In this document: in pieces, positions 19,322 to 52,143 of the stretch
Layout of the letters: each line of letters begins with the position of its first letter
Position numbering within the stretch: the stretch's first letter is position 1
NCBI GenBank assembly: GCA_021740905.1
Contig: JAIOYV010000027.1
Span: 1-64,000 of the forward strand
Length of the DNA: 64,000 bases
Direction of reading: 5' to 3'
Source of the DNA: Bacteroidales bacterium
GTDB lineage: Bacteria; Bacteroidota; Bacteroidia; Bacteroidales; M50B96
Notes under the pieces: generated by a model
What the model saw: the letters and a program-made list of their open reading frames with translations, nothing else
What the model was told of the DNA's origin: nothing
The model's database searches: none
Made by a program: the position numbers and the translations under genes

Positions 19322-19417
19322 AGACGCTGTCATGTCCTGCGGACGATGACAGGTCTTTGCGTAGGAAACCTGACATCGTAGGAAACCTGACATCGTCCGA
19401 AGGACATGTCAGCGTTT
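19322..19417. repeat. Dispersed palindromic repeat (GACGCTGTCATGTCC family), inverted pair
   Basis: A unit reading GACGCTGTCATGTCCTGCGG (from 19323) through GACAGGTC is followed by its reverse complement ending at 19417, with a 17-base tandem (GTAGGAAACCTGACATC) between. The same family lies at 47886-47993 beside engB. The rest of 19224-19549 contains no gene; its last 70 bases, read on the minus strand, are CAGT-type words directly after the porU stop. Confidence 0.85.
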
Positions 19418-19549
19418 CCTCCCATTTTCATAAACGGCCCTCCCAGTTAGTAGCCCACCTACCCAAAAGCTTCGGTGGGTAAAAGGTCTGGGAAACTGGA
19501 GACTGAATACTGCAAATTGCCTACTGAGAACGTCCGACTGAAAACCGGC

Positions 19550-22500
19550 CTACTTCAAGCTCACCAGTTTTTCGATCTTTTCTACCTTAAAGCCTTGTTC
19601 GGTGGCAATACGGAGCCGGTAAAAATAAACCGATCGGCCTATCTTGTTGCCAAAATTGTCGAGGCCATCCCAAAAAACAGGATCGCTGAGGCCCGATTCA
19701 CACAGCATAACACTTTCGAGCCTCCTCACCAATTTTCCCGAAACGGTATAGATATCGATGCTCACATCGAGTTGAAGTCCGGCCAGGTTATGTTCGAAAT
19801 AAAAGGAGGTTGACTGGGTGAAGGGATTGGGGTAATTGAACACGTGTGTAATCTCGGGCACTACGAGGCTGCTTACCTCGAAATCGATTTGGGCTTCTGT
19901 TGGGTTGTTGGCAATATCCCAGGCTTTCACCATAATATTATGTATGCCTTCAGCGAGCGGGCCAATTTCATAGTTCACTTTCCCTTCCCGGAAATTGTCA
20001 AGTTCTGCCTCGTAATAATCGTTCAGGTTTATGGGCGACCCTTTCTGTCCATCGATCCAGGCCGTAAGGTTGCGGCCAATGGCGTGCCCCGTGGTATTAA
20101 TCCCGCTCGAATCGGTCAATAAGATAAGCAAGGTGGACATTGGGCCTACCTTGTCGCCGGGGGAATAGTTTTCATCATTTAGAAAAATCCTGACCTGCGG
20201 ACCAGTCTTGTCGTTCAACTCTGCTTGCCGGTTGCCCGTGATGAGGAAATCGGAATACCGGCCACCGGCATCTTTCGCAGAACTGTTTTCGGACTTGGCA
20301 TAAAAACTCATTTTTCCCATGCCCACTGCTTTGCTGATGTCGGCAGGCAACAGAAATTCCATCGCCCATTGCCCGTTTACGACACTCACCTTTCCTTTAA
20401 AAATTATATTCTCGAACTGTTCGAAGGTCGTCACCAAACTTTCGTTCTCGCCCATCGTTTGAATGGAGTTTTTCTGATCGTAAATCCGTGCTTCAAGTTC
20501 GCCATTAAAATCATCTAAAAAAGCCCCTTCGTTCGATTCGATCTGGCCGCTTACGTGCAATTTAGAAAAAGAATAAAAAGTGTCGGTCAGGTTTTCGATG
20601 CCGTGCTCGTTTATGGTGGTTAGGCGGATTTGGTTGGAAGGCATGGCCAGCATCAAGGCAGGGTCTCCAAGCAGGGAGAAATTGCGTTTGTTGATTCCTT
20701 GCCCTGCAGCCACTTTGGTATTCCGCATTACATCGCCCAGTCGGTTGCCTTCATCCGATTGCTCAAAAATATATTTATAGAAATTCTGGTTCAGGATAAA
20801 ATTTGGGGTTGAATAAACCAGGCGGGTTGTGGTAAACAACGCCACTCCGCCACCATAGGGGTTCAGCAATATCAATTCGCCAGCCGAAGTGCGCCGGTTG
20901 TCGTCGAAGCGGCTAAACTCGCATGTGGCGGTCATAAACACGTTCAATTTTTCGGCATTGTCCCACGACAAGATATCGCCAACGGTGACAACATTGTCGC
21001 TGCCCAAGCCCAGTTCGCTGCCATGCCCGGTGTAATTGACAATCAAAGCCCCCTTATCGACAGAGCGGTTTATGTCTTCTTTGGCCAGCCTGTTTGGTTT
21101 ATTGGCCTCGTAAGGATAAGCATCAAAATAAACCTTTTTTATGTTGAATTGTGGATAAGTTGTTTCGACATACGCCGTAAGGGTTTCTGCCTGATCGAGG
21201 TGGAGGTTGCCATTCCCATTGTCGGCTACAAAAAGGAGGTCTTGCATCCACCCACTTGGGTCGCGCTTGTTTTGGTAATCCTTAATTTTGCCCAACACAA
21301 TTTCTGCTTCGGCCACGCTCGAAACCGGAAGCCGACCTATCCCGATATCGAGAAACCCGCTGGCTTCCCCTTCGTTGTAATCGAGCAAACCATAAAAATC
21401 ATCCGAGATAAAAGATTCGGTAGGTAGCAATGAATTCGCCGACTGAAAAGCTGGTAGGAGTTTTTGACGATCGAAAAACCCGGGGCGCATATCGTACGAG
21501 CCATCACCATATAATAATAGGTAGCGTATTTTCAGCGAATCGGGATAGGAAAAATATTGATGCCTGACAAAATTCCGAATGGCCGACACATCGGGCATCC
21601 CCGACGAAAATTCGTTGTAAATCAGTTGAGGGGTAACTACACAAACCGATAAACCCTCCTCGCGATGCAGTGCTGCCAGTTCTTCTGCCTGAGCATGGTA
21701 TTCCTTAGCCGATAGGATGAGTAGGTCGCATGGACCGGTCGTGTGCAAATCCTGGTTCACTACGGCTTCAATAAATTCGGGACTTTTGATCGTCTGGCTT
21801 TCGGGCTTAAAAACTACAAATTGCCGGAGCGAATCGGTGGTTACAACAAATTCGAGGCTTTCGCCATTAATAGTATGGTTTATTTCTTTTACATTTTGAT
21901 GATCGGTAATATCCCACAAGCTGTAGCCAGCCGAAGCATTTTCGATATGGAAATGGGTAATTGCCCCGGCACCTATTGATTTCGCATCGCGGAAGAAAAA
22001 CTGATCCGTTCCAATTTTTAATGTCCGTCGAACCTGAAGTTGGATAAAGTCGACCCAAGCTTCGGAGTAACTGTCCTGTTTGTTGTAGGTCAATACCACT
22101 TTAATAGAGTCCCCTTCAGGATAAAACTCTGTGTTGAAAGTTTGCTTGCTTGCAAAATAATCGGTCGATGAATAAGTGACCGGCACATGGAGCAATTTAC
22201 CCAGGCCAATCTGATCGTTTATATCAAGCTGGATAAAATTATCCAGATAAGTAGCAGAAGAGCGAGCTGCCGTGGCTATACGGATGTGGGCTTTTTCACC
22301 GGGGATAATACTATCGGCATAAAAATCGAAATGATAAGTAGTTTGGATATCGAAATGTTCACCATACCAAGCCATGCCCGAACGGATTAAGTTAAGCGAA
22401 TCTTTTTCATGGACAAAATAATCATCATACGTATACGCATGTTGATTTTCGGAGAGAGTGGCAATTGCCTCCATCGCTATCCTTTTGCCAGGCCCATTGC

Positions 22501-29354: not shown

Positions 29355-30014
29355 ATGAATAAGATAAACATTATCATAGTTGATGACCATCCTATTGTTA
29401 GTGATGGAATTGAGGCACTGCTTCACAGCACCGAGGATATTCATGTGATTTCGAAGGTTCATGACATCAATCAATTGTTTTTTGATCTGCGCCGCTACCA
29501 TGCCCGCATAGTGCTGGTGAATGTATACGAAGCCAACGATTTGGATATTGAGCGTATATTATCTATTCGTAAGAAACATTCGGAAGTCAAAATCCTGATT
29601 CTTTCGATGAGCAATGAGGAGAATTTTATCCTTAAAACCTTAAAAGCCGGGGCTAAAGGATACTTGTCGAAAGATACTTACCGAAACCAGTTGATCGAAG
29701 CTATTTACACCCTTCGCAACGGCTACGAGTATTATAGCAAGTCTATCTCCACAGTAATCCTGCGTAGCTATATCAACAATAACATCGATCAGCAAGTGAA
29801 GAAGGAGCTTGATCTGAAATGCCTGACCAACAGGGAACGGGAGGTCTTAAAACTTTTTGCCGATGGATATGGAAATCAAAAAATTGCCGACGATTTGTTT
29901 ATTAGTGTCCGCACTGTGGAAACCCACAAAACCAACATCATGCAAAAACTCCAACTTAAAACTACAGTCGACCTGGTTAAGTTTGCCATCCGAAATAATA
30001 TTATCGAAATATAG
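29355..30014 (+). CDS. NarL/LuxR-type regulator with Asn in place of the phospho-acceptor Asp
   Basis: 219 residues: receiver domain (1-120), then a LuxR helix-turn-helix (CLTNREREVLKLFADGYGNQKIADDLFISVRTVETHKT). The pocket acids at residues 10-11 (VDDHP) and the later Lys (KGYLSKDT) are kept, but the strand that should end in Asp reads RIVLVNVYEAND, placing Asn56 where Asp is expected. It therefore is probably not switched by phosphorylation, or is constitutively one state. No kinase is adjacent. A CAGT-word tract starts right after its stop. Confidence 0.88.
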   Translation: MNKINIIIVDDHPIVSDGIEALLHSTEDIHVISKVHDINQLFFDLRRYHARIVLVNVYEANDLDIERILSIRKKHSEVKILILSMSNEENFILKTLKAGAKGYLSKDTYRNQLIEAIYTLRNGYEYYSKSISTVILRSYINNNIDQQVKKELDLKCLTNREREVLKLFADGYGNQKIADDLFISVRTVETHKTNIMQKLQLKTTVDLVKFAIRNNIIEI

Positions 30015-30120
30015 TTGGCAGTTTAACTTCCCCAGCCTGCAGTTTCCAATTACCAGCCATCAGTCCAAAGTCAGTTTTCTGTCTACCCAAACCCGAACCC
30101 GAAACCAGTCTCCAGTTTGC
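30015..30120 (+). repeat. CAGT-word tract after the LuxR-type regulator
   Basis: Word-like, non-coding sequence: TTGGCAGTTTAAC, CCAGCCTGCAGTTTCC, CATCAGTCC, AAAGTCAGTTTTC, CCAGTCTCCAGTTTGC. It belongs to the family at 46075-46140, 50478-50528, and on the minus strand at 50700-50736 and 19480-19549, each time directly downstream of a gene in the sense direction. Confidence 0.6.
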
Positions 30121-30251
30121 TATTGAAATTGAATGGTTCGTGAAAAAAGACAGTATCATCTTAAATTAGTCCTTACCTGCATAATCATTTGCCCTTTTTT
30201 TGATACTTTATTTTCATCAATTGTCAATCATCAATAATAATTTGAATTGCC

Positions 30252-31763: not shown

Positions 31764-31838
31764 GGTGATTGTAGCTCAGTTGGTTAGAGCGCTGGATTGT
31801 GGTTCCAGAGGTCGTGGGTTCGACCCCCATCATTCACC
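31764..31838 (+). tRNA. tRNA-His (anticodon GTG)
   Basis: Cloverleaf: acceptor GTGATTG with 3' strand CATTCAC, D arm TAGCTCAGTTGGTTAGAGC, anticodon stem-loop CTGGATTGTGGTTCCAG with GTG, T arm GTGGGTTCGACCCCCAT. The extra G(-1) at 31764 faces C73, the identity mark of tRNA-His. Base 68 is T rather than A, leaving a T-T mismatch at 5:68. CCA is not encoded. It carries its own -7 box and terminator. Confidence 0.95.
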
Positions 31839-43595: not shown

Positions 43596-46073
43596 ATGTT
43601 TGGGCCAACTCTTTTTGCCGATGTAATACTGCCTCTTCCTCTCGAAGGGAGCTTTACTTTTGCCTTGCCCCAGGAGATGGAAGGTTCGGCAGAAGTAGGC
43701 AAACGGGTCATTGTGCAATTTGGCAGGAAGAAGATTTACACCGGCATAATCAAAGAAATCCATTCAACCAAACCCGAAGGCTATGAGGTAAAGGAGGTAT
43801 TCGAGATTATCGACGACAAGCCCATTGTAAACCACTTTCAGTTGCTTTTGTGGCAATGGATGGCTGATTATTATATGTGTACCCCTGGCGAGGTTTACCG
43901 GGCTGCCCTACCAACCGGATTAAAACTTGAATCGGAGACCAATGTGCTTTTGCAAAATGATTTGCCGGACGATATTGAGCTATCTGAAAAGGAAGAAACA
44001 ATTATCGCCTTCCTGAAAAGTGAGGCCCAGCTCAGTATTAGCCGGGTAAACGAAATTCTTGGGTTGAAAAATGCCATTCCTTATGTAAAGTCCCTGATTG
44101 AAAAACGGGCAGTTGTAATCGAAGAAAAACTGGATGATGGCTTCAAGGCAAAAACCGAAAGCTTCGTTAGACTTGCTCCCGATTATCAACAAGAAGAAAA
44201 GCTGACCGAAGTTTTAGATAAACTTACCCGAGCCCATAAACAACATGATCTATTAATGACTTTCCTCTGTTTATCTGAATCTTATTCAGAAGAAGATAAA
44301 AAAAAGATTAGCCGCAAACAATTGTTGAAAGAGGCTGCAACAAACCATGGCACTCTAAACAGCCTGGTAAAAAAGGGCATCCTTGAAATTAATGAAGAGG
44401 AAGTGAGCCGCCTTCATTTTAATTCAACAGAAAAAAAAGAACTGAAACCTTTGTCTGAAATCCAACAGGACGTGTATGCCAACTTAAAGGCCGGGTTTCA
44501 GGAAAAAGATGTGGCTTTGTTGCACGGGGTCACGTCGAGCGGGAAAACCGAAATCTACATCCACCTGATTGCCGACTACCTGAAACAAGGCAAACAGGTA
44601 CTTTATCTCTTGCCCGAAATTGCCTTGACAGCACAAATCATCAACCGGCTCAAAACTGTTTTTGGCGATAAAGCAGGGATTTATCACTCGCGCTATTCCG
44701 ATGCCGAACGGGTGGAGACCTGGTACAATATCCTAAACACAGATGCAGAAAATTCCTATCAGTTAATTCTTGGGGCACGCAGCGCGCTGTTCCTTCCTTT
44801 TTCCAATCTGGGGCTTATTATTGTTGATGAAGAGCACGAGACCAGCTACAAACAGCAATCGCCTGCTCCGCGCTACCATGCCCGCGATAGTGCCATTGTG
44901 CTGGCCAACATGCATGGCGCAAAAACACTGTTGGGGACAGCCACCCCTTCTCTCGAAAGTTACTATAATGCGAAATATGGACGCTATCATTTTGTCGAAC
45001 TTTTTTCGCGTTACCTCGACATCCAGATGCCTGAGGTTGAAATTGCGGACATAAAAACAGCCAGACGCAAAAAACTGATGAAATCAATCTTTTCGCCCCA
45101 GCTCCTGGCATCGGTAGAACATTCGCTGACCCAGGGCGAGCAGGTGATCCTGTTTCAAAACCGGCGTGGGTTTTCGCCTTACCTCGAATGTAATTCCTGC
45201 GGATGGGTTCCCCGTTGCACACAATGCGATGTTAGCCTTACCTACCACAAGTTTACCAATTACCTGGTGTGCCATTATTGTGGACATTCCCAAAGCATAC
45301 CCCGTGCTTGTCCTGATTGCAAGGATGAAAAGATTTCGACCCGGGGCTTTGGTACTGAAAAAGTAGAGGATGAAATTGCCATCTTCTTTCCACAGGCACG
45401 AATTCAACGCATGGATCTTGATTCGACCCGCAGCAAGAATTCGTACACGAAAATAATCACTGATTTTGAAGCTGGCGATGTTGATATTTTGGTGGGCACA
45501 CAAATGGTGTCGAAGGGTTTAGATTTCGACAATGTAAGCCTGGTGGGGATTTTGAATGCCGACAGCATGATGAACTTCCCTGATTTCCGGGCCTTCGAGC
45601 GCAGTTTCCAGATGATGGCCCAGGTGAGCGGAAGGGCAGGTCGTAAAAACAGGCAGGGAAAAGTGATCATCCAGGTGTCAGATCCGGAGCATCCAATTAT
45701 CAAGGATGTGAAAGAGAATAATTTTGAGGCCATGTACAACCATCAGCTCGCCGAGCGGCATCTCTTTCATTACCCTCCATTCGTGCGGCTTGTTATGTTG
45801 TCGGTCCGCCACCGTGATGTAGAGCAGGTAAACAAAACCGCCGATGCCCTGGCCATAAAACTTCGGACTGTTTTTGGCCTGTTTCTCTTGGGCCCTGAGT
45901 TTCCTATTATAAAGCGGGTACAAAACCGCTACCACAAAAACATCCTAATCAAAATAAAAAAGGACAAGGATGCCTCCGGGAAGCGTGAGTTTATTCGGCA
46001 AAGCTGCAAGGACATACTTTTAAATCCTTACCATCGCTCTGCACAGATTGTAATTGATGTAGATCCGATGTAG
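43596..46073 (+). CDS. priA: Primosomal replication restart helicase PriA
   Basis: 825 residues. N-terminal 3'-DNA-binding domain (FADVILPLPLEGSFTFALP), Walker A GVTSSGKTE at about 311, DEEH box IIVDEEHETSYK, and the zinc-binding insertion with eight cysteines (CNSCGWVPRCTQCD, CHYCGH, CPDC), then helicase motifs GTQMVSKGLDFDNV and QVSGRAGR. It reloads the replisome at stalled forks. A CAGT-word tract follows its stop directly. It is divergent from the dciA-like gene. Confidence 0.96.
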   Translation: MFGPTLFADVILPLPLEGSFTFALPQEMEGSAEVGKRVIVQFGRKKIYTGIIKEIHSTKPEGYEVKEVFEIIDDKPIVNHFQLLLWQWMADYYMCTPGEVYRAALPTGLKLESETNVLLQNDLPDDIELSEKEETIIAFLKSEAQLSISRVNEILGLKNAIPYVKSLIEKRAVVIEEKLDDGFKAKTESFVRLAPDYQQEEKLTEVLDKLTRAHKQHDLLMTFLCLSESYSEEDKKKISRKQLLKEAATNHGTLNSLVKKGILEINEEEVSRLHFNSTEKKELKPLSEIQQDVYANLKAGFQEKDVALLHGVTSSGKTEIYIHLIADYLKQGKQVLYLLPEIALTAQIINRLKTVFGDKAGIYHSRYSDAERVETWYNILNTDAENSYQLILGARSALFLPFSNLGLIIVDEEHETSYKQQSPAPRYHARDSAIVLANMHGAKTLLGTATPSLESYYNAKYGRYHFVELFSRYLDIQMPEVEIADIKTARRKKLMKSIFSPQLLASVEHSLTQGEQVILFQNRRGFSPYLECNSCGWVPRCTQCDVSLTYHKFTNYLVCHYCGHSQSIPRACPDCKDEKISTRGFGTEKVEDEIAIFFPQARIQRMDLDSTRSKNSYTKIITDFEAGDVDILVGTQMVSKGLDFDNVSLVGILNADSMMNFPDFRAFERSFQMMAQVSGRAGRKNRQGKVIIQVSDPEHPIIKDVKENNFEAMYNHQLAERHLFHYPPFVRLVMLSVRHRDVEQVNKTADALAIKLRTVFGLFLLGPEFPIIKRVQNRYHKNILIKIKKDKDASGKREFIRQSCKDILLNPYHRSAQIVIDVDPM

Positions 46074-46074
46074 G

Positions 46075-46140
46075 CAGTTCATTGCGGTAGTCACCAGTCA
46101 CCAGTCGTCAGTTCTCAGTCCAGTCTCAGTTCATCAATCC
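46075..46140 (+). repeat. CAGT-word tract after priA
   Basis: Begins 2 bases after the priA stop: CAGTTCATTGCGG, TAGTCACCAGTCACCAGTCG, TCAGTTCTCAGTCCAGTCTC, AGTTCATCAATCC. At least seven CAGT words in 60 bases, without coding potential. Confidence 0.7.
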
Positions 46141-47885: not shown

Positions 47886-47993
47886 CTGTCAGCGTCTGCA
47901 AGACCTGACAGCGTTTAGGTCACCCAACTTTGAATGACGCTGTCATGTCCTTCGGACGATGACAGGTCAAACTTCGGACGATGACAGGTCAAA
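47886..47993. repeat. Dispersed palindromic repeat (GACGCTGTCATGTCC family), second locus
   Basis: CCTGTCAGCGTCTGCAAGAC and relatives, then GACGCTGTCATGTCCTTCGG (47936-47955) and a 22-base tandem TTCGGACGATGACAGGTCAA (AC), twice. It matches 19322-19417. The 3' end of engB lies in the tandem copies. Confidence 0.85.
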
Positions 47994-48584
47994 CTCTTTA
48001 TTTGTTTTGCTGATAAAGCCCAGCACTTCATCGCGGCCCATTGTTGAAGTGGCGGAGGTAATAAATATTTCGGGCAAATCATCCCAGGATTCGAGCATTA
48101 TAGTTTTGTAATTGGCAAGATTCCGTTCAAGTTCGGTGGGTTTCAATTTGTCAGCTTTTGTAAATACCATTACAAAAGGGATTCCATTGTTTCCTAAAAA
48201 ATCCATGAATTCGAGGTCGGCTTTTTGGGGTTCGAGCCTGCTATCGAGCAACACGAAAAGACAAAAAAGTTGTTCGCGTTTTTTTAGGTAGTTGGTAATA
48301 ATCTGGCTGAAACCGGCACGCAATTTTTTCGATACCTTGGCATAGCCATATCCGGGCAAGTCGACCAGGAACCAGGCATCGTTTATCAAAAAATGATTGA
48401 TTAGTTGTGTTTTTCCAGGAGTGCCGGAAGTCTTGGCCAGTTTGCTGTGATTGGTCAGCATGTTTATCAACGATGATTTCCCCACATTGGACCGCCCAAT
48501 AAAAGCGTATTCTGGAATATCCCTTTGGGGGCACTTAGCCACCAGTGAGTTGCTCATTAAAAATTCAGCCGTTTTAATAATCAT
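47967..48584 (-). CDS. engB: Ribosome biogenesis GTPase EngB/YsxC
   Basis: 205 residues with the full G-motif set: IGRSNVGKSSLIN, T in SGTPGKT, DLPGYG, TKAD, and SATS. Needed for late large-subunit assembly. The last nine codons, FDLSSSEV and stop (47967-47993), come from the dispersed GACAGGTC repeat rather than from an ancestral gene end, so an element has replaced or extended the C-terminus. A complete promoter lies upstream. Confidence 0.95.
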   Translation of the reverse strand: MIIKTAEFLMSNSLVAKCPQRDIPEYAFIGRSNVGKSSLINMLTNHSKLAKTSGTPGKTQLINHFLINDAWFLVDLPGYGYAKVSKKLRAGFSQIITNYLKKREQLFCLFVLLDSRLEPQKADLEFMDFLGNNGIPFVMVFTKADKLKPTELERNLANYKTIMLESWDDLPEIFITSATSTMGRDEVLGFISKTNKEFDLSSSEV

Positions 48585-49918: not shown

Positions 49919-50464
49919 ATGCCACGACCAATTCGAAGTAGGAAAATGAATTTGCCCCCTGCCATGCTGGGCTTCAAACCTTTTGGTACACCCCTTCGTG
50001 ACCTGGAGGCTGTTGAATTACTGTTTGAGGAATTCGAAGCTATCCGGCTAGCCGATTACGAGGACCTTAATCAGGAGGAGGCAGCTGTTAAGATGGGTAT
50101 TTCGCGGCCTACCTTCACCCGCATTTACGATAAGGCACGAAAGACTATTGCTAAAGCCTTGGCCGAAAGTAAAGTAATTGCGATTTCGGGTGGTCATGTA
50201 AAATTCGACAAAGACTGGTTCAAATGCCGAAAATGCGACGAAACTTTCATCAGCCGCCCTACCGAAAAACATAGCTGTGGGCATTGCGATTCAGACGACA
50301 CAATAAAAATTGGTGACAAGACAGAGGAGAAAGGTAGCAATGCATTCCTCGGAAGCAAACCTTGCTATTGTCCCGATTGTGGGGTCGAAGTTGATCATAA
50401 GCAAGGTGTCCCGTGTTGCTCTTTGAAATGTCCTTATTGTGGTACTCTTTTGAATGGTAGGTAG
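49919..50464 (+). CDS. DUF134 helix-turn-helix regulator with zinc ribbons
   Basis: 181 residues. The DUF134 region (MPRPIRSRKM, FEAIRLADYEDLNQEEAAVKMGISRPTFTRIYDKARKTIAKAL) is a sigma-r4-like helix-turn-helix. It is followed by zinc-binding pairs: CRKCDETF with CGHCDSD (about 98-123), and a rubredoxin-like set CYCPDCGVEVDH and CCSLKCPYCG at the C-terminus. The extra cysteine clusters make it longer than plain DUF134 proteins (about 100 residues) and suggest a metal-responsive role (inference). A CAGT-word tract follows the stop. Confidence 0.82.
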   Translation: MPRPIRSRKMNLPPAMLGFKPFGTPLRDLEAVELLFEEFEAIRLADYEDLNQEEAAVKMGISRPTFTRIYDKARKTIAKALAESKVIAISGGHVKFDKDWFKCRKCDETFISRPTEKHSCGHCDSDDTIKIGDKTEEKGSNAFLGSKPCYCPDCGVEVDHKQGVPCCSLKCPYCGTLLNGR

Positions 50465-50736
50465 CGAAGTACTTAGCAGGCAGTTCTCAGTCGGCAGTAT
50501 TCAGTCGTCAGTCATCAGTTCTCAGCCGGTTCTACAAAGCTTACCCGTTGTAGGTAAGTTGCAGGTTGTTATATTGCATCCCGATGATGGGTTAAAAAAC
50601 ATCCAATATTGAATATCGAATGAAAAAAGTTAAAAATTGTGAATTCCTAAAATTCTCATTCAAGATTGGATATTGAATGTTGGATGTGGGATGTTTGGGA
50701 TGCTGCCTATTGCGTACTGGAGACTAAAGACTGATA
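50465..50736. repeat. Three word-repeat tracts between convergent genes
   Basis: 50478-50528 carries CAGTTCTCAGTCGGCAGT, TTCAGTCGTCAGTCATCAGT and TCTCAGCC in the plus direction after the DUF134 gene. 50609-50695 carries ATTGAATATCGAATG and GATTGGATATTGAATGTTGG words (relatives at 55463-55540). 50700-50736 on the minus strand reads CAGTCTTTAGTCTCCAGT directly after the sugar-transferase stop. No gene seen. Confidence 0.65.
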
Positions 50737-52143
50737 TTAAGACCCATTGGCCGACAATACGGTCTTCACGGTTTTAATAAACAGCATAAAATCTAGCTTT
50801 GGCGACCAGCTGTCGATATATTGCAAATCAAGTTTCATCCACTGGTTGAAAGGGATATTGTTGCGGTTGGGCATTATTTGCCAAATACAGGTAATCCCAG
50901 GTTTCATCGATAGTCTTCGCAATTGCCACCTCTCGTATTTTTCAACCTCATCAGGGATGGGTGGGCGCGGACCTACCAGCGACATATCGCCTTTTAGGAT
51001 GTTGTATAGTTGAGGAAGTTCATCAAGTCCTGTTCTCCGAAGAAATCTTCCAATACGTGTAATTCTAGGGTCGTCTTTAATTTTGAACGCAGGGCCATCC
51101 ACTTCATTCATCTCTTCGAGCTCGTTCCTCATTTGCTCGGCATGCGCCACCATTGTCCGGAATTTGTACAAATAAAACTTCCGTCCACGTAAGCCTACAC
51201 GCATTTGCCTAAACAACACAGGGCCATGCGAGGTATATTTTATCAGGATGGCAATTACGACCATCACCGGGGTAAAAATTAATAGTGTAAGGAAAGCAAA
51301 TACATAATCGGTAAGCCACTTCAGTTGCAAGGCAATGTAATCGGTTGGGGTGTTTGAGAATGAAAAGAAAGGGATTTCGTCGAAATAGGTAAGCTTCGAT
51401 TTTGTCCCGGTAATATTCCATAAATGCGACTGCATACGGAAACTAACACCAATTTCTTCGCAGGAATAAATCAACGATTGAATTTCCGTCTGATTGATTT
51501 CGTTCATGCAATACACTACCTCATCTACCACATCAAATTCGATAAGACTCCTTACACTGGCCTTTGAAGTAATTATTTTGGCACGTTTGCCATATTTTTC
51601 ACGGATCCTTGGCGAATCAGACAAAATCATAATAATCCTGTAGCCCCACTCTGGATGGCTGAGTATTTTATCGATGAAAGGAATTGAAGTGTCGTCTGCT
51701 AATATGAGGATGTTGCGTTTGTTTTGTCCTTTTGCCCGGTAGTACTTCGATACAATAAAAGTCAATATTTTGGTTGAATAAAGAAGAACCAGGTTGATTG
51801 CCGCAAAAAGCACAATGACAATCCTTGAAATAATGTTTAGGCGCAGAATAAAGATAAAGAAAATAACAACGGCAAATCCAATTATCACCACTTTAAACAA
51901 TTGTACAAAAATTTGGGCATAAGAGCGTGTGCGGGGGATGCCAAGCAAATTGACCGAACGTAGCAAAAATAGCCATGTTGGGACAATAAGCAGTACTACC
52001 GTAATGTATTCGCTTGAATACCTAAGGTTTATATCGAAATAATTCAACCTTATGAAGTAGGCGAGTAAAAACGACAGTAAGGTAACTGATACATCAATTA
52101 CGCTTATGAAAAAATTTCCTATTTTCTTTTTTTCCGAGACCAT
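50737..52143 (-). CDS. Polyprenyl-phosphate sugar-1-phosphate transferase
   Basis: 468 residues: four N-terminal membrane helices, a Rossmann-like middle domain (NILILADDTSIPFIDKIL), a fifth helix (FAFLTLLIFTPVMVVIAILI), and the C-terminal initiating transferase domain (FRQMRVGLRGRKFYLYKFRTM, RRTGLDELPQLYNILKGDMSLVGPRP, KPGITCIWQ). It starts exopolysaccharide or O-antigen synthesis by moving a hexose-1-phosphate to undecaprenyl phosphate in the inner membrane. It is alone here; no polysaccharide cluster follows in the window. Confidence 0.92.
   Translation of the reverse strand: MVSEKKKIGNFFISVIDVSVTLLSFLLAYFIRLNYFDINLRYSSEYITVVLLIVPTWLFLLRSVNLLGIPRTRSYAQIFVQLFKVVIIGFAVVIFFIFILRLNIISRIVIVLFAAINLVLLYSTKILTFIVSKYYRAKGQNKRNILILADDTSIPFIDKILSHPEWGYRIIMILSDSPRIREKYGKRAKIITSKASVRSLIEFDVVDEVVYCMNEINQTEIQSLIYSCEEIGVSFRMQSHLWNITGTKSKLTYFDEIPFFSFSNTPTDYIALQLKWLTDYVFAFLTLLIFTPVMVVIAILIKYTSHGPVLFRQMRVGLRGRKFYLYKFRTMVAHAEQMRNELEEMNEVDGPAFKIKDDPRITRIGRFLRRTGLDELPQLYNILKGDMSLVGPRPPIPDEVEKYERWQLRRLSMKPGITCIWQIMPNRNNIPFNQWMKLDLQYIDSWSPKLDFMLFIKTVKTVLSANGS

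Follow-up and report, generated by a model that had tools for sequence, protein, structure and literature searches.

The window, i.e. the whole stretch of 64,000 nucleotides analysed here, carries five CAGT-rich tracts, each close behind the stop codon named for it in an earlier note on this DNA, and Pfam upholds the gene names given there. The array of priA (Pfam PriA_3primeBD, PriA_C) occupies positions 46071..46131 of the plus strand including its TAG stop (46071-46073), and reads TAG GCAGT...TAGTCAC CAGTCAC CAGTCGT CAGTTCT CAGT. In the LuxR-type response regulator (GerE, Response_reg; plus strand, 30012..30128) the TAG stop (30012-30014) stands in register with the repeats (TAGTTGG CAGT...), so that the stop codon itself fills the first unit, and a decayed array follows that ends in CCCGAAACCAGTCTCCAGT. 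The DUF134 gene (DUF134; plus strand, 50462..50527, TAG stop 50462-50464) is followed by ..TAGCAGG CAGTTCT CAGTCGG CAGTATT CAGTCGT CAGTCAT CAGT, and porU (peptidase C25, Pfam Peptidase_C25; minus strand, 19490..19552, TAG stop 19552-19550) by CAGTCGG..CAGTAGG CAATTTG CAGTATT CAGTCTC CAGT. The sugar transferase (Bac_transf; minus strand, 50700..50739) ends in TAA (50739-50737), and its array, TATCAGT CTTTAGT CTCCAGT ACGCAAT AGGCAGC, is degenerate yet in perfect 7-nt register. At least four CAGT within 60 nt are found in four of the five tracts, the fifth being the degenerate one. An Rfam scan of the window yields no match at the arrays, its sole match being a tRNA at 31765-31838.

Further repetitive features occur in the same window. 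A hairpin-like element of the CCTACGAAGCTTTAGCGTAGG type is located at 19453-19480 (minus strand), and also at loci L194, L216, L222, L189, L168, L201 and L230 of the same analysis. Elements of this type sit directly between a stop codon (or gene edge) and the CAGT array, which then often begins about 31 nt past the stop; at porU the element comes after the array. Positions 50590-50705 hold a second word tract (TTGAATATCGAATG, TTGGATGTGGGATG) with a period of about 7 nt and the core GRAT, another heptamer family in the spacer common to two CAGT arrays. At 47950-47995 and 19340-19410, CTTCGGACGATGACAGGTCAAA and CGTAGGAAACCTGACAT are repeated in tandem and accompanied by dyads, for example ATGTCCTTCGGACGATGTC; these copies look like a dispersed palindromic repeat.

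The tracts do not code for protein; they are degenerate heptamer arrays, in which the core CAGT recurs each 7 nt and is followed by three variable bases (CAGTNNN). The earlier note had described them as tracts of CAGT words; the words are there, but the strict 7-nt unit and the TAG stops at four of the five had been overlooked. The genome of the window (6.54 Mb in 160 contigs) possesses 241 exact CAGTNNNCAGTNNNCAGT triples against two for a reversed-pattern control. The comparison with randomised intergenic sequence proposed in the earlier note was equally clear: the sampled intergenic DNA, 266 kb in all, contains 221 CAGT triples, and 20 order-1 Markov simulations gave none. When every 4-mer made up of three or more different letters was scanned in intergenic DNA, 1682 triples were found at spacing 7 versus 4 and 10 at spacings 5 and 6; spacings 8 and 11 gave 450 and 828, so non-heptamer repeats exist too. 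CAGT is the top core at spacing 7, and the words AGTT, ATAC, TCAA and CCGA represent additional heptamers. Among 588 units of this genome the core is kept while 53 kinds of NNN occur, with identical NNN in adjacent units in 16% of cases versus 5% expected. The 6.5 Mb genome contains roughly 100-150 arrays in total.

Gene context was worked out for the window's genome, the relatives G054 and G049 being left out, in a 1.84 Mb sample that comprises the window and the surroundings of almost every array; this choice inflates array frequency and leaves stop type and phase unaffected. Genes were called with a home-made, simple hexamer-model caller, so that start codons in particular are approximate. 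TAG is the stop codon at 40 of 52 arrays starting within 20 nt of a stop, versus 453 of 1431 genes (32%). In a scan of every stop codon, CAGT follows TAG at d = 4, 11, 18, 25, 32 and 39 in 21, 21, 24, 20, 15 and 10 of 451 genes, respectively, with a second register at 1, 8, 15 and 22. In the same scan CAGT remains near baseline at all distances after TAA or TGA, and the control word ACTG shows no such peaks after stop codons. The commonest junction is TAG directly followed by TNNNCAGT. The C-termini of the proteins agree with those of relatives to the residue or nearly so, differing by a few residues at most (RKSGGFN, NFLY, VDPM), and the stop in the relatives is mostly TAA. This stop codon is the majority in the relative G002 (69%), and the comparison therefore shows an unchanged protein end, not an ancestral TAA; in the few cases compared there was no sign of TAG as the ancestral stop. 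For priA, the nearest named relatives belong to Geofilum, whose ortholog has the same terminal residues VDPM and a TAA stop, and no array triples occur in 80 Bacteroidota priA loci.

Among 144 arrays of the sample and window, 123 lie between two called genes. The earlier note had held that the tracts lie close to stop codons and always in the sense direction. For sense arrays the closeness is strongly borne out: of 78, about two thirds start no more than 20 nt past the stop codon, and the median distance of sense arrays is 4 nt. The strand rule applies to all five window tracts but fails genome-wide, with 47 sense versus 23 antisense arrays in spacers of co-directional genes; a further 28 lie between convergent and 25 between divergent genes. 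In 48 of the 123 the gene flanking the array 5' is antisense, and many of these arrays begin upstream of a promoter motif. For this reason the 3'-UTR element, which the note had suggested beside an insertion targeting gene ends, is too narrow a description. What does hold as a rule is that an array lies closest to its 5' neighbour gene and runs from there into the spacer. This is the case for 108 of the 123 intergenic arrays, including 37 of the 48 with an antisense gene in that position. Arrays that share a spacer consequently face each other, and pairs are 18 times convergent versus once divergent. Antisense arrays start about 100 nt (median) upstream of the start codon. The Bacteroidetes promoter motif TA..TTTG has a density of 3.7/kb between array and start versus 0.47/kb beyond the array (control 3.2), hence these arrays fill the DNA outside promoters.

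The CAGT heptamer pattern is present in 26 of 60 relatives of the same order. The motif TAGTNNN plus three CAGT units was detected in 63 of 297 Bacteroidota genomes, and the NNN set is particular to each of them; 983 kb of other Bacteroidota contained no arrays. TAGT is found 115 times at the left versus 23 times at the right edge in 19 genomes, a ratio that is only supportive, since abundant left-edge TAGT was one of the reasons for choosing them. A scan of IMG/VR returned at least 120 stretches with five-unit arrays. Viral contigs resemble the bacterial genome in polarity and stop usage, with 47 convergent versus 14 divergent pairs in 80 loci and TAG at 28 of 54 array stops versus 160 of 697 stops of all ORFs. 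In related phage contigs with flanks up to 95% identical, the same spacer may contain an inverted pair of CAGT arrays or a sequence unrelated to it, and in one such spacer the homologous slot is occupied by a perfect hairpin element instead. Related phage arrays differ by whole 7-nt steps (L320 versus L325). When the sampled genome was searched against itself by BLAST for recently duplicated regions differing in the presence of an array, no usable case emerged.

Several loci deserve separate mention. In a phage gene pair the last codons differ between L289 (390-410), where the array enters the reading frame (QTVSS), and L325 (680-700), which encodes EGVKA; the 3' end of a reading frame can therefore be replaced by an array. 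At L159 (11145-11890, minus strand) CAGT arrays alternate with AACCCGC heptamers in a common 7-nt phase within a called ORF of 2037 nt, which is perhaps no gene but a block of repeats. In G002 (L239, L240, L241, L242), CAGT arrays lie inside facing tandem units of about 90 bp, mostly at contig ends, i.e. where assemblies break. Palindromes of the GTAGAGACGCAATTTATTGCGTCTCTAC type often come after arrays at several loci, e.g. L158:10500-10720, and GTAGAGAC is present in 11 of the stretches 3' of arrays.

Steps of 7 nt are also what slippage of a simple sequence repeat would leave, and we regard such an origin as improbable. It supposes slippage of a 7-nt unit that is selected out of genes, with polarity and phasing arising from microhomology deletions in which the AG of TAG is joined to the AG of CAGT and the spacer DNA up to the stop is lost. 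Exactly TAGTNNNCAGT would result if a deletion brought TA(A/G) and (C)AGT together, identical adjacent units are three times above expectation, and 7-nt indels separate related arrays here as in other published repeats (PMC4679880). Slippage should, however, homogenise all seven positions, of which the core alone is shared, and it gives no account of promoter-side arrays pointing away from the gene.

Folding separates paired from lone arrays. Six of seven inverted pairs are predicted to fold far better than shuffled sequences (z -4.9 to -7.2; the seventh, L193, -2.4), with CAGU/ACUG helices and the variable bases largely in internal loops. Lone arrays are unstructured, with an MFE of 0 kcal/mol for the 9-unit array of L120, so that single arrays are ruled out as hairpins. 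In one reading, facing arrays would serve to build a long hairpin with imperfect pairing, in which 4-bp helices alternate with 3x3 loops, whether in single-stranded DNA or in intergenic RNA; they would then be comparable to REP/BIME elements, and single arrays would be decayed pairs. The mostly convergent orientation of pairs agrees with this, as do the perfect hairpin in the homologous phage slot and the extra decayed ACT-N4-ACT words near apparently single arrays at divergent genes. As a general explanation we nevertheless think it quite unlikely: where single arrays lie in spacers of co-directional or convergent genes, signs of a partner are weak or missing, and most arrays of the genome, all those of the window included, have no partner within 700 bp. 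A further candidate is a mobile element, such as a MITE, with terminal inverted repeats of CAGT heptamers. Convergent pairs and the location at contig ends in G002 would suit such an element. Most arrays are single, however, the inside of a pair measures 8-513 nt and shares no content with others, and between convergent genes both stops can carry an array of their own with 114-271 nt of other DNA in between (L171, L194, L196); an element of this kind is very improbable.

The earlier note was right that the tracts are not conventional terminators. Folding of two window arrays gave energies like those of shuffled sequences (z -0.2 and -0.8), and the stable hairpin plus U-run of an intrinsic terminator was not found. 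A hairpin with T-run accompanies 1 of 40 array genes versus 45 of 366 other genes (p = 0.07), or 1 of 20 versus 21 of 187 (p = 0.70). Rho utilisation and TRAP-type sites consist of a periodic short motif in unstructured RNA; the likeness of CAGT arrays to them is a resemblance only, array spacers often being G-rich. On a boundary model the array could mark where a transcript ends, its CAGU being bound, one per 7 nt, by an oligomeric Rho- or TRAP-like protein that ends or trims the outgoing RNA, whether this has read through the stop of a gene or runs backwards, in antisense, from a promoter. Sense arrays at gene ends and antisense arrays upstream of promoters present CAGU on outgoing RNA either way, the core is kept and spacers are free, lone arrays are unstructured, and terminator-like hairpins are fewer at array genes, although this deficit is not significant. 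Transcripts also start or stop at the heptamer repeats of Xanthomonas more often than in controls (Rehm et al. 2015, PMC4692102). On the other side, some 100-150 arrays per 6.5 Mb, with a patchy phylogeny and absence from 983 kb of other Bacteroidota, are unlike a general 3'-end signal. G-rich spacers in some genomes are unlike Rho sites, the heptamer differs by lineage, and upstream arrays lie outside the promoter and would need antisense transcription. We consider a transcript boundary possible but rather unlikely as the primary cause.

The earlier note knew of no named family like these tracts. Their geometry has been published for the G-rich heptamers (GGGANTN)n of Xanthomonas and GGGGA(C/T)T of Nostoc, and their core for a TAACTGA repeat (PMC4679880). 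According to Rehm et al. 2015 (PMC4692102), the Xanthomonas and Nostoc repeats are, like CAGT arrays, intergenic with a 7-nt unit of conserved core and variable positions, the nearest ORF lies on the 5' side, sense repeats stand close to stops, and antisense repeats are located within 50 bp upstream of ORFs, closer to the start codon than the median of about 100 nt found here. The paper also describes many convergent pairs in Xanthomonas, as in CAGT arrays, and 83% of the Xanthomonas repeats at the same place in two species; in the sections consulted no phasing with TAG stops is reported. GGGGACT reads AGTCCCC, a CAGT-type heptamer, on the opposite strand. Unlike (GGGANTN)n, CAGTNNN has no regular GGG run for a quadruplex and therefore belongs to the wider kind and not to the G-rich family: the 7-nt core unit, the 5'-nearest gene and the convergent pairs are found, quadruplex G-tracts are not.

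Direct repeats of TAACTGA have been described from Beggiatoaceae, cyanobacteria and five Bacteroidetes (MacGregor 2015, PMC4679880), with copy number changing in 7-nt steps. TAACTGA is the reverse complement of TCAGTTA; both repeats are intergenic and have the core in common, and where TAACTGA precedes a start codon CAGT points away from the gene (PMC4679880). The Beggiatoaceae repeats differ from those of the window's genome in their near-perfect units, mainly beside start codons (PMC4679880). The corresponding unit CAGTTAT is absent from the 588 units of the window's genome, and the relative G054 possesses both CAGTTAT-type and CAGTNNN-type units. Three Calothrix heptamers, STRR of heterocystous cyanobacteria, are cited in PMC4692102. 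The STRR heptanucleotide repeats are tandem and dispersed, like CAGT arrays. Two of the three Calothrix heptamers presumably carry CAGT. CAGT arrays thus extend, with a different core, a known but little-studied class of edge-located heptamer repeats. We found no description of the TAG phasing or of the full geometry with a core lacking G-tracts; stop-codon phasing and a non-quadruplex core seem new.

For arrays with a 7-nt period, a CAGT core with free NNN, inward polarity, abutment and phasing with TAG, and unchanged protein C-termini, we favour, tentatively and short of an even chance, a DNA process anchored at gene edges that builds arrays into spacers, in preference to a transcript-end signal. 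In such a process 3' ends would be extended in 7-nt steps, or 7-nt units added successively, at gene edges, and arrays would be laid from either side into dispensable spacer DNA, 5' to 3' away from the flanking gene or promoter. At the left edge the last native base would often be the T of the stop codon, with the array supplying AG(T); at the right edge the array would halt short of the next promoter. Facing arrays would form an inverted repeat folding into a long stem, and transcript ends would be affected, if at all, only as a consequence. The exact 7-nt spacing, the phase with stop codons, the filling of DNA outside promoters and the 7-nt steps between related arrays support this process. 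The polarity seen from either side of the spacer and the overwritten phage spacers likewise favour it, and the occurrence of one geometry with different heptamers, (GGGANTN)n in Xanthomonas, suggests a process rather than recognition of one word. Other features favour instead a signal, in RNA or DNA, that has been retained: the core is conserved and the spacers are free, and the literature reports conserved positions and transcript ends for such repeats. That Xanthomonas repeats keep their place suggests retention for a use (PMC4692102). The tendency of terminator-like hairpins to be missing at arrays likewise counts against the DNA process, as does the variable NNN, since a fixed template would give identical units. 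Another difficulty is that arrays so sharply favour the T of the stop codon, which the process would predict only if its initiation required T or TAG.

Since the same geometry occurs without G-tracts, the G-quadruplex reading of the Xanthomonas repeats is not a general cause of the layout. It is conceivable, though we think it doubtful, that a widespread bacterial process writes arrays of fixed polarity and lineage-specific core (CAGTNNN, GGGANTN), overwrites native stops with a TAG encoded by the array, and so shapes stop usage and 3' ends across several phyla and phages. CAGT arrays may bias the stop-codon statistics of affected genomes, and the phasing with TAG stops provides a sharp handle on the origin of the arrays and on possible transcript ending.
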